From [Chlorobium] sp. 445 (GTDB taxonomy: Bacteria; Bacteroidota; Chlorobiia; Chlorobiales; Thermochlorobacteraceae), in the NCBI GenBank assembly GCA_002763895.1, contig NSLH01000011.1:1-64000 (forward strand): a DNA stretch of 64,000 nt, written 5' to 3'. Every line of letters starts with the position of its first letter. Positions within the stretch are counted from its first letter, which is position 1. The notes beneath the pieces were generated by a model. That model had not been told where the DNA came from and ran no database searches. It saw nothing but the letters and a program-made list of their open reading frames with translations. Position numbers and translations under genes: made by a program. Below, in pieces: positions 36,218 through 61,729 of this stretch.

Positions 36218-37251
36218 TTACATAGGCTGCGACTCTGCAGGTGGCGTAAATCCAAGTTCTTGAGCGCGTTGCGCATTATGCACAAGTTTGCGCACTTTAA
36301 CTGGACGCAAGCCTACAGCTACCAAATCACCAGTATCGAAGTATTCAGCTGCGGCTTCACCGGCTTGATAGCCCCACATGTAGAAATCAGCACCATATGC
36401 AATGGTCGCGCCACGCTTGACTAAACCAATTTCAGATGTTACAATCGGCACTTTCTTTTCAAGCGTTTCTTTCAAAATCACTTCGAAACTGGCAAAGACA
36501 AGATTATCAGGCAAGGCAAAAACACATCGGGCTTTTTGCTCAGAATGGCTTGCACGGCTTGCTGTGTTTCAGCTGTTGATGTAATGGAGCGAGCTTCGAG
36601 TTTAAGATTATTTTGCTTGCACTTCTTGCGCAGTTCTTTCATCGCATTGGTAGAATTTGGCTCTGCGCTGTTGAAAATCACACCAATAGTTTTTGCATTT
36701 GGGAAAGCGCGCCGAATGAGTGCAATACTTGAATCAATGTAAGCCAAGGTTTCATAGACACCGACAAGGTTTGCAGGTGCTTTGACATTTTCTCCTTGCT
36801 TAATTGTTAAATCGTTGATTGTGGGCGCAGGACCCACCATCATGAAAATCGGTATATCTTTTGTTTTCTTCAGGGCGGTCATCATTGGCAACGTAGCATT
36901 TGCAGCAATGCAGGTTACCTTATCGGCAATGAATTTATCAATGATTTGGTTGAGCGTCGGAATATCGTTTTGTGCATTTTGGTAAATGATTTGCGCTGTA
37001 CCCGCTGTGTCAGAGTAGCCTCTTTTGGCAAGTGCATCAATGAATCCTCGGCGCGCTTCATCGAGTGTTTCATCATCGACAGGCTGCACAAAGCCGATTA
37101 CCACAGGCTTTTTGGCAGGTTTTTCAATTGAACTTTCGGGTTTCTTAGGTTCTTCTGGTTTTGAGGTACAGCCTACTGCATAGATGATTATGCCAAACGT
37201 CATAAGCAGCACCATGCGCCTGAATGCGTGGCTGCAGTGATTGTGCATCAT
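36218..37251 (-). CDS. ABC-type substrate-binding lipoprotein (TrpX/pfam04392-like, one frame break)
   Basis: A protein of about 344 residues with a membrane-anchoring lipobox (IIIYAVGC). After a Lys/Pro/Glu-rich linker it has the periplasmic binding-protein fold of the ABC_sub_bind family: VVIGFVQPVDDETLDEARRG, LNQIIDKFIADKVTCIAANA, KTIGVIFNSAEPNSTNAMKE, and later IVTSEIGLVKRGATIAYGAD with YMWGYQAGEAAAEYF. Relatives bind tryptophan or other small aromatics. The frame breaks in the A-run at 36518-36522; one added base gives PDVFFALPDNLVFASFEVIL. No permease or ATPase gene is adjacent, so its transporter must be elsewhere or it has another role. The start may be an ATG further downstream. Confidence 0.8.
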
Positions 37252-55699: not shown

Positions 55700-57647
55700 T
55701 TAGCGTAGGACTTGCGTCGATTCTGCCATCTTGAATTGACGAATCGCGTTTTGCAGTTGCTCGGCTTGGTTAATCAGGTCTTGAGAGAGTTGGATAATTT
55801 CTTCAGATGCTGTCTTATTTTTGAGGGCTGTTTCAGAGAGGGTTTCAATGGCTTTCAACATTTTTTTGTCCCATTGCACGCTGTAATTCGTTCTGCTCTA
55901 TGACTTGCGAGGTACGAATTGTCATATCGGTTGTTTTCATCGTTACTTGCTGTCCGCTACGCATTTGGGCATCAATTAACCCTGACAAGCGACTCATAAT
56001 GCTGCTTGAGCGAGAATAATACTGTGTGATTTTGTCTAAGGTTTTCTCGGCATCCTTTACGGTTGCCATGCTATCGAGCGCAGCTTGATTTGTTTCTACG
56101 ATGGTATCTACAATTCGCATCACGTTTTGACGAATCTCGAGAATCATACTTTGAATCTGCTGCGCTGAAGCCGATGACTGTTCTGCCAGGTTTCGTATTT
56201 CAGATGCCACCACGCGGAAGCCTTTGCCTGCTTCGCCAGCGATAGCAGATTCAATTGAGGCATTGACAGCAAGCAGGTTTGTTTGCTTGGCGGTACGTGC
56301 TGCAATATCTGTCGTTCCGGTCACTTCACGCGTATTGCGGTCTAAGATTTGAATTTGATTGATGAGGCCCTCGAGACGCTCTGAGATGCCCAGGATAGAT
56401 TGGCTAATTTGCTCAATGCCAAAGCGTCCACCCTGCACCTCATTGATCACTTGACTAAAGACTTGGTTTGCATCTTGAATACTGCGTGCGGCTTCCTGAA
56501 CGGTACTGATGAGGTCTTCAATCGCTGTTCTTGTCTCACGTACATTGATTGTCAGTCCTTGTACATCTTCTGTTACCGCATTGAGCGACACACTCATTTT
56601 ACCAATCGTTTGTGAGGCTTCTTTGAGAATCGCATTTTGATTTTCAGCGCTTTTAGCAATGCCTGTTGCTGTATTGCTGATGTCCAATGCAACTTGGTTA
56701 AGTTTCATGGTCAGATCCACGATTTCACGCACTGTATCCTTGACACTATCGACCAGTGTATTGAAATGTTCGACGATTTCGCCTAACTCATCGGGCTTAT
56801 CGTAGAGCAGTCGTTCGGAGAGATCGCCTTGAGCGACACGTGCTGCGGTGCTAGCGATTTTCCGAACTGGCTCAGCGATTGTCTTTTTCATGATGATAAA
56901 GAGCAAGGCCATGATCACAACACCGGAGAGCAGCACAGCGCTCACAATCAGGAGCGTATCGTATAAGCGGCTCTGCTGAAATGTTTGCGCAGGCACAATG
57001 ATAGAGACCGCACCACGCAAGTCACCGACTTTGTAACCGTATCCTGTTTCGTAATTCTTTTGCACATACTCTGGGGCTTGTGCCTTATCGCCATGGCAGG
57101 TTAAGCATTGCTTTTTGATGATAATCGGCTGCGTATAGCGAATCACGTCTTGTCCGTTGATTTTACTCTTATCCCATATTGCGATTTGCTTGCGCAGTTC
57201 TGGCTCCGATAATCCTTTTGTGCGGTATTCAATCATGCGCTGCTGCAATTTTGCAAGCAGATTTTCTTCATCAAGGTCAGCAGGTTTATTGCGAATGTTG
57301 CGGAAGTTTTGAGAGATTTGGCGCACCTTGAAGCCCGATATGGTCGCATCGGCCTTTTGTTCTTTCTGCCCGAGTTGAGCGATGCTGGGGTTGTAGTGAA
57401 TCATCATCAGCAACGTGTAGCTTGTGTCGCTGAGCGTTGCATGAGATTTGACGAACATTTCAGCGTTGAATGCCCACATGTCTTGAAGCGTTTCAGCCGT
57501 TTGAATGGCTTTACTTTCAAACTCTTCTTGCACTCTTGATGCATAGCGATTTTGAAACAGCACCGTTAGCACCACCAGGACTATAGCTACTGCAATAGCA
57601 AGCGTGATTAGGATTTTCTTATCAAGACGGCTGTTACGCTCCTCCAT
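55700..57647 (-). CDS. Methyl-accepting chemotaxis protein with heme-motif DUF3365-like sensor domain (one frame break)
   Basis: About 648 residues after repair. An N-terminal helix ([20 protein letters not shown]) leads to a periplasmic domain of about 190 residues with a c-type heme motif, CLTCHGDK, followed by [20 protein letters not shown]. That wording matches DUF3365/Tll0287-like sensor domains. A second membrane helix ([20 protein letters not shown]) precedes HAMP ([20 protein letters not shown]) and an MCP signalling domain. Its hairpin tip is [20 protein letters not shown] with IRNLAEQSS. The frame breaks in the T-run at 55861-55867; one fewer base gives [20 protein letters not shown] and a stop at 55700. 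It likely senses redox or a heme-bound ligand. Confidence 0.9.
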
Positions 57648-57670
57648 AAACTTGAATTAGTAGGGCATTC

Positions 57671-57700
57671 AAGCTACTGACCGCTAAGGGTCAGTAGCTT
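57671..57700 (-). other. Perfect 12-bp hairpin upstream of the MCP gene
   Basis: AAGCTACTGACC at 57671-57682 pairs perfectly with GGTCAGTAGCTT at 57689-57700 around a six-base loop. It lies between the 194-residue protein's stop and the MCP start. No T-run follows on the minus strand, so it may be an mRNA processing or attenuation element rather than a terminator for this operon. Confidence 0.6.
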
Positions 57701-57717
57701 TTTGGATTGATTATGAC

Positions 57718-58302
57718 TTAGCTACTTACTTTTGTTAGGATTGGCATCCGTTCAAATCTGTAACCCAGTCCCTTCATAGCTTTCACCATGGCTTCAGTTT
57801 CTTGCGTAACACGCTGCTTTGTTTCTGCGATAGATTTTGAGGATACGCCAATCTCCGAGTTAAAATACTCTAATACCGCTTTGCTGAGCGTGTCCAGTTT
57901 GGCTTCGGCTTCCCCTTCTACCACCAAGCCTGTGATGCTCTTTTCATCGGGCGTTATAGCATAGCGGAAGCTAAAATCAATGAAGTTCAAGATGTTCGGG
58001 TTCTGTACGCTTCGCACATCCGTTGAGCGGTAGCGTTCGATAAAGTCACGCACAATCAAATCGGGACGAACCTTATTGGCTTCTTGCAAGATTTCTGCAA
58101 AGGCTTTTGTGTATTCAATGCGAAGTGTGCTGTTTTTGAAGGGCACATCGGCTTTCATAGCGTCCATTCGCTTTTGCCAAAGGTCAATCGTATCAATAAA
58201 CTTCTTGAAGCGCTGGTTTTCAAGTTTTGCACGCTCATATTCATCTTTTGCTGAGAGTTCCTTTTTGTCAGGTGTTTCGTAGCGTGAGCGCAGTTGCTTC
58301 AT
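57718..58302 (-). CDS. Unrecognised protein in chemosensory operon, 194 aa
   Basis: I do not recognise the family. The first 60 residues are highly charged and helical (KKELSAKDEYERAKLENQRF). The centre has DLIVRDFIERYRSTDVRSVQ and NFIDFSFRYAITPDEKSITG. The end is helical with alternating charge (SKSIAETKQRVTQETEAMVK). No signal peptide or membrane helix is visible. Its ATG overlaps the stop of the preceding 402-residue gene by four bases, so the two are translationally coupled and probably act together. Placement between CheW and MCP genes implies a signalling or adaptor role. Confidence 0.75.
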   Translation of the reverse strand: MKQLRSRYETPDKKELSAKDEYERAKLENQRFKKFIDTIDLWQKRMDAMKADVPFKNSTLRIEYTKAFAEILQEANKVRPDLIVRDFIERYRSTDVRSVQNPNILNFIDFSFRYAITPDEKSITGLVVEGEAEAKLDTLSKAVLEYFNSEIGVSSKSIAETKQRVTQETEAMVKAMKGLGYRFERMPILTKVSS

Positions 58303-59507
58303 ATCGGATTTAAAGCGGCGTCTATAAACTTATCGGCATAGGCGGGGTCTTTTTTGTGCAACGCCAGTAGAAAATCCACGCCATCATTTTCCACGAGCGG
58401 CAAAGGCACTTTGATATAGCGGCAGGCTTCGTCGAGACGACCGACTTCAATGTAGAAGTTTGCCAGTGCAATCTGGTATGGATAGTAGTTGATATCCGAG
58501 GCAAAGGTCATCAGCCAGTAAAACTCCTTGCGTGTTACATTTACCTCACGCATTGCCTTTTCTTTCCAATAGAAGCTCTTTTGCGCTTTATCTTCTGGCG
58601 CAGGCACCTTCACCTTTTTGAACAGTCCTGCCTTGATGTAAGCTGGTCCGCCAATCCCATCGCGCTCAATGAGTTTATCAATCACAGCCTTCATGTCTTG
58701 ACGCAGTTTTTCTTGCCCTGGAAGTGGCTGCTGGTCGAGTGCGTTATAGAGGTGCATGACCGCACTGAGTTTATTGTCGACTTGTTCATCGCCTTTTGTT
58801 ACCTTGACTTTCTCGAGGTAGTCATATGCGATGCGATAGTTGCAGTCGAAGAGAATCTCATCTTGGCGTCGCACAATGGCATCGGAGCGTTTGCCGACGC
58901 CTTGTTTGAAGCGAATATTCAGCGCGAGGGCTACAGCCAAAGCTTTGAAGTAATCTTTATTGCGATAGTGCTGCTCGACTTCAAACATTTTGGCTTCTTC
59001 ATCAATGCCTTGTTCGAGTTCTTCATCGATTTCCAAGATAATTTTATCGCCATCGATGCGCAGCAAGTCTTCAGTGTTTGTGTTGAAGATCGCTGCGGCG
59101 GCTTTTTCGTCAGCTAAGATATCGCCGAGCACGCTTTCAAGGTCTAAGCCCAGCACATTATCGCCGCCGCCGTCGCTATCATCATCCAAGAAAGATGAAG
59201 CAGGTTTAGTCGGTGCACTTGCTGCAGCAGCAGCTTTTGCGGCAATGGTTTTTGCTGACGCATGCACTTCTTCTTGTTTCGGCTTTTCTTTGACCACTTC
59301 GTCTAAGATACCCAAATACTCTTTGAGCATGCGGTCGCTAATTGCCGTATTCTTTACATAATCAAGTAGTTTTTTCTGCTCTTCGCAGAGCGTTCTTAAA
59401 AAGTCGTTGTTAGCATCGGCTTTCAAGGCTTGCTCCAACTCTACCACATTAGTAAGGAGTTTTTCGACGAGTTGCGCTCGCAGCGCTGCATTTTCTCTCG
59501 TGTTCAT
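58299..59507 (-). CDS. Unrecognised protein in chemosensory operon, 402 aa
   Basis: I do not recognise the family. Residues 1-75 are helical and coiled-coil-like (LRAQLVEKLLTNVVELEQAL). A low-complexity Ala/Lys/Pro linker with an acidic Asp/Gly segment (SSFLDDDSDGGGDNVLGLDL) follows at about 85-125. The remainder is a TPR-like helical domain: MFEVEQHYRNKDYFKALAVA, DYLEKVKVTKGDEQVDNKLS, and FASDINYYPYQIALANFYIE. The acidic linker and helical repeats fit a scaffold that could hold signalling partners. It is cytoplasmic. The coupled 194-residue gene follows with overlapping stop and start. Confidence 0.75.
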   Translation of the reverse strand: MNTRENAALRAQLVEKLLTNVVELEQALKADANNDFLRTLCEEQKKLLDYVKNTAISDRMLKEYLGILDEVVKEKPKQEEVHASAKTIAAKAAAAASAPTKPASSFLDDDSDGGGDNVLGLDLESVLGDILADEKAAAAIFNTNTEDLLRIDGDKIILEIDEELEQGIDEEAKMFEVEQHYRNKDYFKALAVALALNIRFKQGVGKRSDAIVRRQDEILFDCNYRIAYDYLEKVKVTKGDEQVDNKLSAVMHLYNALDQQPLPGQEKLRQDMKAVIDKLIERDGIGGPAYIKAGLFKKVKVPAPEDKAQKSFYWKEKAMREVNVTRKEFYWLMTFASDINYYPYQIALANFYIEVGRLDEACRYIKVPLPLVENDGVDFLLALHKKDPAYADKFIDAALNPI

Positions 59508-59536
59508 TTTGATCCATGAGATTTAGTTTACAAGTA

Positions 59537-60154
59537 TCATTGAAACTGACTAAGTTCTTTAGTACTGAGCAAACTCTCTGTGTCAATCAAAATCACATCG
59601 TTATCGCGCCCTTGTTCTCCAGGTCTGGTAAAAAGACCCTTTGCAAATTGAGAGATGCGTGCCAGTTCTCCATCGGCAGCATTCACCTTGACCAACTCTC
59701 GCTCGGCGACACGCAAGACATCGAGCACGGCATCGACCAGAATACCCACAGAGTAGAGTTCGCCACGCAGGATGATCATTTTTTCTGCAGCACGCTCACG
59801 CCGATTCTTTTGTTGTCGCCGTGTACCGAGGCCTAAAATTTTGCGCACATCTACAGCTGAGGTAATTTCGCCGCGCACATTGCAAATCCCAAGAATGTAG
59901 TCCGGCAACCCCGGCACAGGCGTAATGCGCGGCACATCGAGAATGGCTTCAATGTCATTGACGCGAAATGCGACTTCTTTTTCACCGAGCAACATGGCAA
60001 TATATTGCTCGCGCTCTTCTTCGCTTTCTTGCTGCTGAGATATGTCGCTGCTGGCGTCTATGCTGCTCAGCAACTTGATCACATCTTTATCAATCGTGTT
60101 CAAATCTTCAAGACGAATCTCCTCATTTTGCGCACTGGGCTTTTCATCATTCAT
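59537..60154 (-). CDS. CheW-like adaptor protein
   Basis: A 205-residue CheW-domain protein with an N-terminal acidic, Glu/Ser-rich extension of about 50 residues (MNDEKPSAQNEEIRLEDLNT). The CheW fold follows: LGEKEVAFRVNDIEAILDVP, ITPVPGLPDYILGICNVRGE and ITSAVDVRKILGL, then YSVGILVDAVLDVLRV. CheW bridges MCPs and CheA at the chemoreceptor array. The extension is longer than in the Escherichia coli protein (167 residues) and could bind the neighbouring unknown proteins. It lies 68 bases after cheY and 29 bases before the 402-residue gene. Confidence 0.92.
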   Translation of the reverse strand: MNDEKPSAQNEEIRLEDLNTIDKDVIKLLSSIDASSDISQQQESEEEREQYIAMLLGEKEVAFRVNDIEAILDVPRITPVPGLPDYILGICNVRGEITSAVDVRKILGLGTRRQQKNRRERAAEKMIILRGELYSVGILVDAVLDVLRVAERELVKVNAADGELARISQFAKGLFTRPGEQGRDNDVILIDTESLLSTKELSQFQ

Positions 60155-60222
60155 TTTCGCATCTCCCGCACTTAGTAAGAGTTATCTTGACGCCACGCTT
60201 TTGTCTTGCTTTCTGCACTTTA

Positions 60223-60591
60223 TCACGACGGGGCAAGGGCTTTGTTTACTGCTGAGACCAAGTCATCCTCGTTAAATGGCTTCACCAAATAGGCTATTGC
60301 CCCTTGCTTCATGCCCCAAAACTTATCGCTGTCTTGATTTTTGGATGTAATCATAATGACAGGAATTTTGGCTGTCTCTGGCATCTTTTTGAGATTGCGA
60401 CAGACTTGGAAGCCGTCTTTCTTTGGCATTACCACATCGAGCACGATGATATCGGGTTTGAGTTCAACGGCTTTAGCTTCACCTTCTTCGCCATCATTAG
60501 CCTCGACGATGGTATAACCCAACGCCGTCATGACTTTGGCGATAATGGTGCGCTCTACAGCGCTATCATCGATTATGAGGACTTTTGGCAT
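60223..60591 (-). CDS. CheY-like single-domain response regulator
   Basis: A 122-residue receiver domain. The acidic pair is in LIIDDSAVERT, the phospho-acceptor Asp in IIVLDVVMPKKDGFQ, the switch Thr in VIMITSKNQD and the conserved Lys in YLVKPFNEDD. No output domain follows, so it acts by protein contact. It lies 23 bases after the DUF4388-receiver gene and directly upstream of cheW, as in Pil/Pix clusters, where the equivalent is PilH/PixH. Confidence 0.93.
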   Translation of the reverse strand: MPKVLIIDDSAVERTIIAKVMTALGYTIVEANDGEEGEAKAVELKPDIIVLDVVMPKKDGFQVCRNLKKMPETAKIPVIMITSKNQDSDKFWGMKQGAIAYLVKPFNEDDLVSAVNKALAPS

Positions 60592-60614
60592 ACAGTTAAA
60601 GAATGAGATTAGTT

Positions 60615-61729
60615 TTAACTGGCAACAGGTTCAGTTTTCTTCAGAAACCGCTCTACAACTTGCAAGAGCTCTCCATCTTTGAACGGTTTGGTAATGTAAT
60701 CATTTGCGCCTGCATGCAACCCCAAATTTTTATCGATTTCCGCATCTTTTGCTGAAAGCATCACGATAGGCGCATCCTTGATAGCCTCATACTCTGCATC
60801 AGTACGAATTGTCTTACAGATTTTCAGACCTGTTGTATCTGGCAGCATCACATCCAGCAAGATCAGGTCTGGACGATGTTCTAACGCCAACTCCAGTGCT
60901 GCTTTTCCGCTTTCAGCAGTAATCAAGCTGTATCCCGTCTCCGAGAGTGCAAGTTGAATTGTCTTAAGAATCACTTTGCTATCATCGACAGCAAGAATTT
61001 TCTTTCTCGTATCTTTTTGTCCCTCTACGAGCTCAATCCACTTTCCATCGAGCAAGACGACCAAGCACTTTAGGACAGAGACTTCTTCCATGCGCAACTT
61101 TAACGCTAGCGTTTTGATATCCGTCTTACCATCAATCGCCAGGAAGACTTTCCACTCTGCTAATTTCAGAGAAATCTCGTTCATTTCTTCTTCGCCGCGC
61201 TTGGTTTTTCGGGGCACGGCGTTGACGTTTGGAATACGCTGGCGAACCAGTTCTAATTCATCGACCTTGACCGACGCTGTTAGCATGATGCCTTGAATGT
61301 CGACACCGTTACTTAGCCCTTGAACGGTGAGCGGGGCTTCGGGGTCGAAGGCAACCTTCGCGCTTTTTTCTTGCAGGAGTGCCGTAATGACACGCTCAAT
61401 TTGAATGCGTATAGCTTTGACTAACTTTGGCGCATCGACTTTCTTCATAGCAAGAAGAATTTGTTCAATGCGCTTGTCGCGATGCTGTTTTTGATAGGCA
61501 ATAGCTTGGTCTAAGTCAGCGCGTGTAATCATATTCTCCTCTAAGAGAATCGCGCCAAGATCTTCCGAGCCTGTATCGACAGCAATCACCAGCCCGTTAC
61601 GAAAAAATACTTTTTTTGCACATCGCCATCATCCGTCGTTACAATCATTGCGCCGGTTTTTTTCATCTGGCGAATGAGTTGAAGCATTTCCGTAATTGTC
61701 CATCCTTTGATGTTCCCAACAAATGACAT
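60615..61729 (-). CDS. DUF4388 (PATAN)-receiver protein, PatA/PixG-like (one frame break)
   Basis: About 371 residues. The start is the ATG at 61729, giving MSFVGNIKGWTITEMLQLIR, the usual DUF4388 opening. The frame breaks in the T-run at 61611-61617; one added base gives FFRNGLVIAVDTGSEDLGAI. The DUF4388 domain spans about 1-170, with a winged-helix-like middle (MNEISLKLAEWKVFLAIDGK). The C-terminal receiver has ILAVDDSKVILKTI, LILLDVMLPDTTGLKI with the Asp, IVMLSAKD and YITKPFKDGE. PatA/PixG proteins control heterocysts, phototaxis or pili in cyanobacteria. It is the first gene of this operon. Confidence 0.88.

Follow-up and report, generated by a model that had tools for sequence, protein, structure and literature searches.

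A five-gene chemosensory operon with an orphan protein in [Chlorobium] sp. 445, and a second locus with CheA and, in most genomes, MglA

Gene content of the operon

The window, a stretch of 64,000 nucleotides of contig NSLH01000011.1 from [Chlorobium] sp. 445, carries a row of chemosensory genes on its minus strand. An earlier note on this DNA had described a CheA-less, Pix/Pil-like operon made up of a DUF4388-receiver, CheY, CheW, two ORFs and an MCP. Pfam domain matches agreed with this gene content and strand, and the PATAN-REC, CheY, CheW and MCP genes do stand in a row, as in Pix/Pil clusters. A protein without a recognised family does sit between CheW and the MCP; neither of its two ORFs scored above cut-off in Pfam or NCBIfam. 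The genes were read as follows, and the protein without a family is called X.

60615..61729, minus strand: PATAN(DUF4388)-REC response regulator (PF14332 and PF00072); its halves match a single ORF in relatives
60223..60591, minus strand: CheY, a single receiver domain (PF00072, 94 bits)
59537..60154, minus strand: CheW (PF01584, 83.5 bits)
57718..59507, minus strand: protein X, almost certainly a single gene of ~597 residues (relatives carry it as one ORF: 11 genomes of Chlorobiales and 4 of a second Bacteroidota class)
55700..57647, minus strand: MCP with a heme-c Cache (Tll0287-like) sensor, HAMP and a signalling domain (PF11845, 98 bits; PF00672; PF00015; CLTCH motif)

The outer limits proposed earlier, 55700 and 61729, hold only when the first and last genes are read through their frame breaks. 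The operon is flanked by a putative ParA/ParB-like pair above the PATAN-REC gene, as read from translations, and by two tRNA genes immediately below the MCP gene. Between X and the MCP gene there is a perfect 12-bp hairpin at 57671-57700; its sequence is not kept in 3 relatives, 1 of which has another strong stem at a similar place.

Protein X: reading frame, distribution and structure

In the window, X appears as a 402-aa ORF (58299-59507) and a 194-aa ORF (57718-58302), both on the minus strand, which overlap by ATGA. These had been taken for two separate proteins that were translationally coupled through overlapping starts. In relatives, however, both ORFs fall inside a single ORF of 492-644 aa. 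The matches to the 402-aa and 194-aa ORFs shared one ORF in 11 of 11 Chlorobiales relatives, where they lay 9-24 nt apart, and these relatives include two genomes of the same genus; in the second Bacteroidota class, X was one protein of ~490 aa in 4 genomes. At the junction, the closest relative has TTTATGGAGCGCCGCTTCAAATCGGATATGAAG where the window has TTTATAGA-CGCCGCTTTAAATCCGATATGAAG; likewise, TTTATAGA-CGCCGC in the window stands against TTTATGGAGCGCCGC in the closest relative, so that one base is absent near 58320. Past the junction, the 402-aa ORF reads a few out-of-frame residues to a TGA that overlaps an internal ATG. Because the relatives keep a single frame across the junction, the ATGA overlap represents an in-frame Asp-Met-Lys of one protein rather than translational coupling, and the supposed start is an internal Met codon; the apparent pair of coupled proteins is an artefact of the frame break. 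To judge by these alignments, the 402- and 194-residue ORFs are almost certainly one gene, split by a one-base error in the assembly.

Other genes were broken as well. Against G001 and G002, two genomes of the same genus, 8 of about 20 long conserved window genes were frame-broken (near 36530, 37500, 45600, 50540, 51785, 55865, 58320 and 61600), a count that covers only the window and its near flank. The PATAN-REC break near 61592-61616 is at C+A7 where the frame needs C+A8, and the MCP gene break near 55863-55867 has A7 for A6; both genes are unbroken in relatives. With 8 of about 20 compared genes broken, the operon's first and last included, the assembly appears to be error-prone, which would explain the breaks better than biology; assembly error rather than true mutation is the probable cause. 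That 2 of the operon's 3 breaks sit in A runs raised the option of a programmed frameshift or slippage, which was rejected because relatives are unbroken at these sites and unrelated genes are broken too. The ATGA overlap in the window is what speaks for two separate, translationally coupled proteins forming a split scaffold in this lineage. However, a single ORF in every relative, same-genus genomes included, and the like breakage of so many comparable window genes make that arrangement extremely unlikely. Claims from this assembly that depend on split or overlapping ORFs need checking; more generally, neighboring ORFs that overlap in a draft genome can turn out to be a single broken gene.

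A search with the 402-aa protein found X in 12 of 61 genomes, namely the source genome and 11 Chlorobiales relatives. The order PATAN-REC, CheY, CheW, X, MCP was kept in 11 of these 12 Chlorobiales genomes, and its first four genes were kept in all 12. The same five-gene order was present in 4 of 4 genomes of the second Bacteroidota class, with an X identity of 34-36%. The gene order is therefore conserved in relatives, across two classes of Bacteroidota, as a search called for in the earlier note was meant to establish. Among 394 Bacteroidota genomes sampled across the phylum, X was limited to Chlorobiales and this second class. In one Chlorobiales genome, G007 (locus L020 9829-19000), the MCP gene is absent after X.

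X begins with ~75 residues of variable helices. Next come a disordered linker and a conserved short motif with the consensus LGLDLExxLGDxLSDE, and after these a beta hairpin ahead of the helical body. The helical N-terminus is not a shared feature, being absent from one whole genus and from the second class. Two models of X (mean pLDDT 74.7 and 72.6, moderate confidence) predict a helical solenoid. Family and structure searches, also called for earlier, gave no clear match to a known unrelated family. Nothing convincing was found in Pfam, NCBIfam, PHROGs or PDB sequences; no TPR profile reached its cut-off (best E 0.017 in the member shown); and Foldseek searches with the two models returned no match at E<=0.001, with TM-scores below 0.3 and TPR/HAT proteins as the top names. 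No enzyme-like match to the models was found. X is like TPR/HAT alpha-solenoid proteins in its helical hairpins and its weak, sub-threshold TPR matches, but is unlike them in that it passes no profile cut-off and has no fold match at E<=0.001. The proposal that X is mostly helical and TPR-like thus holds for the helices and, more weakly, for the likeness to TPR proteins. X as a relative of the N-terminal half of CheA was rejected (hhalign probability 0.8%). Its position, its form and the absence of enzyme matches make an adaptor or scaffold the best guess for X, one to which we give an even chance of being correct.

CheA at a second locus, and the receptor

The description "CheA-less" is correct for the cluster, as no cheA lies in the window, but not for the genome, in which a CheA dimerisation-domain match at G000:C29, on a contig edge, rules out a lack of CheA. 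Each of the 12 Chlorobiales genomes had one such match, either on another contig or distant on the same one, and CheA and X occurred in the identical 12 of 61 genomes. Since the genome has the full set of MCP, CheW, CheA and CheY, the earlier idea that X replaces a step between CheW and the receptor is unsupported. The operon very probably functions together with that distant CheA.

G001 has at its second locus an MCP, a 2055-aa CheA, two CheWs, a REC-DUF4388 protein, a Roadblock protein and MglA. The domains of this CheA are Hpt, dimerisation, ATPase, CheW and REC, with the PF00072 match at the C-terminal end. Other Chlorobiales second loci had the same set or most of it (contig ends, fewer CheWs); that of G005 held the MCP and CheA only, and its MglA block was not beside cheA. 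The counterpart in the second class had the same set plus CheR and further genes. The second-locus MglA matched solved MglA structures at 1e-70, and the Roadblock protein matched PF03259 at 27.7 bits, above cut-off, with no MglB match in PDB. No Pfam domain lies in the first ~1,070 residues of the giant CheA (L086 8001-11210, minus strand), a part that diverges rapidly: within one family, its identity to the first sequence is 23-50%. With an MCP and CheWs encoded at the second locus too, each locus could instead build an array of its own.

The PF11845 match of the operon MCP, together with a CxxCH present as CLTCH, fits an sCache_heme MCP. The operon MCP shares this combination with sCache_heme (DUF3365/Tll0287) receptors (PMC12889525) and differs from them by its new genomic setting only, with loss of the heme loop in G012. 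Of 15 operon MCPs, 14 retain CxxCH; the G012 copy (L024 6385-8112, minus strand) has lost the entire loop.

In the Thermochlorobacter family, the search for CheR gave no more than a weak match, in G007, so that adaptation there may not use methylation. The sole clear Chlorobiales CheR belongs to the Chloroherpeton family (G009 L122, G012 L121), where it is part of a ~1370-aa open frame that is probably a hybrid signalling protein. The lack of a dedicated CheR in the Thermochlorobacter family would suit a role for X as an adaptation factor standing in for receptor methylation. However, the second class has X and CheR together, with one CheR adjoining cheA, and because both are carried there a CheR substitute is a highly unlikely role for X.

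Output of the system and its comparison with known systems

PATAN regulators recur in motility operons (PMC5812497). Like Pix/Tax1 of Synechocystis (PixG-PixH-PixI-PixJ-PixL), the operon brings together PATAN-REC, CheY, CheW and an MCP; in contrast to Pix/Tax1, it has no CheA in the cluster, it has the extra X, its MCP carries a heme-c Cache and not a cyanobacteriochrome, and the 12 Chlorobiales genomes with CheA and X are without PilT. In Myxococcus xanthus, a response regulator connects a chemosensory system to MglA (PMC3441718). The CheA-REC kinase, MglA and Roadblock protein found here are like parts of the Frz-RomR-MglA/MglB system of that species, whereas the genes here lie over two loci, X is among them, and the Roadblock protein is without a PDB sequence match. 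Also different from Myxococcus, in this case from its Agl-Glt machinery, is the presence of SprA (type 9). ChpA of the Pseudomonas aeruginosa Pil-Chp system is a very long CheA with Hpt and REC, like the CheA here; unlike Pil-Chp, the present system occurs without PilT and with MglA and X.

SprA, the type 9 secretion translocon, was found in 12 of 12 CheA-bearing Chlorobiales and in 0 of 9 Chlorobiaceae tested. Its place in the source genome is given below.

G000:C7:96313-103050: SprA

PilT was found in none of the 12 CheA/X genomes, and the same search gave matches in 13 of 14 controls, 5 of them over cut-off. For GldL, which was searched without a positive control, TIGR03513 gave one sub-cut-off match and PF22827 gave none. 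Chloroherpeton glides, Ca. Thermochlorobacter is considered gliding, and Chlorobiaceae are nonmotile (PMC9318685). The co-occurrence of SprA, CheA and X amounts to few independent events because it tracks one clade split (shared ancestry). Together with the absence of PilT, this co-occurrence suggests a system that is Pix/Frz-like in parts and is probably linked through MglA to gliding, not to type IV pili. We consider it fairly probable that the system drives a gliding output. The surface motility suggested in the earlier note is thus plausible, with SprA and MglA present, but not by way of type IV pili, as PilT was undetectable.

Other outputs have to be weighed against gliding. If the operon were a Pix/Pil-type control of type IV pili with cheA simply relocated, the Pix-like ordering of PATAN-REC, CheY, CheW and MCP would follow, and a large multi-Hpt CheA with REC would be in keeping with it. 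That no PilT turned up across the 12 genomes, in a search that matched nearly all controls, and that SprA and MglA are present both disfavor a pilus output, which we regard as quite improbable. Alternatively, the system could have an output other than motility, for instance the secretion of surface proteins or the polarity of the cell, in which MglA would be a general-purpose polarity switch. The neighbors of cheA do include MglA and Roadblock genes, and SprA also serves secretion generally; however, the system is absent along with cheA in nonmotile Chlorobiaceae and present in gliders, and a non-motility output therefore seems unlikely to us.

Taken together, we lean slightly toward a chemosensory system for surface gliding that is divided between two loci, with the five-gene operon as one of its halves. 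In this system, the periplasmic heme-c Cache domain of the operon MCP would read a redox or gas signal, with NO as a candidate ligand. The operon MCP and CheW would join the single second-locus CheA, the giant kinase with Hpt, CheW and REC, in an array, and CheA would phosphorylate the operon CheY and PATAN-REC as well as the second-locus REC-DUF4388 protein. The phosphorylated regulators may act on the polarity switch of MglA and Roadblock, whose genes adjoin cheA, and through it would influence in which direction or how frequently cells glide by the type 9 (SprA) route. The REC-DUF4388 protein is a candidate for the RomR/RomX linker. X would be one cytoplasmic protein, with its conserved motif and predicted helical solenoid body, that serves as an adaptor or scaffold on the CheW/MCP side, for example by tethering a response regulator to the array or by connecting the array with the polarity proteins. 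A bolder reading, in which X is a new core chemosensory class, an alpha-solenoid adaptor that couples CheW/MCP/CheA to MglA and steers SprA gliding, is doubtful; if it held, a Bacteroidota gliding machine would be under chemosensory control by a dedicated two-locus Che-Mgl system.

These genes likely represent a variant chemosensory system with Pix-like genes at this locus, Frz/Mgl-like partners elsewhere, one orphan family and a likely link to SprA gliding. The steering of Bacteroidota gliders is poorly known. A 2025 study of type 9 rotational direction cited CheY only for the flagellar motor and left MglA unmentioned (PMC12239597), and no paper that tied a chemosensory system to type 9 gliding was found in the literature searched. 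In gliding relatives of the green sulfur bacteria, the MglA-bearing chemosensory system is found together with SprA, and the nonmotile Chlorobiaceae examined lack it. Because Chloroherpeton thalassium has been cultured, the role of X and the Che-Mgl link are testable.
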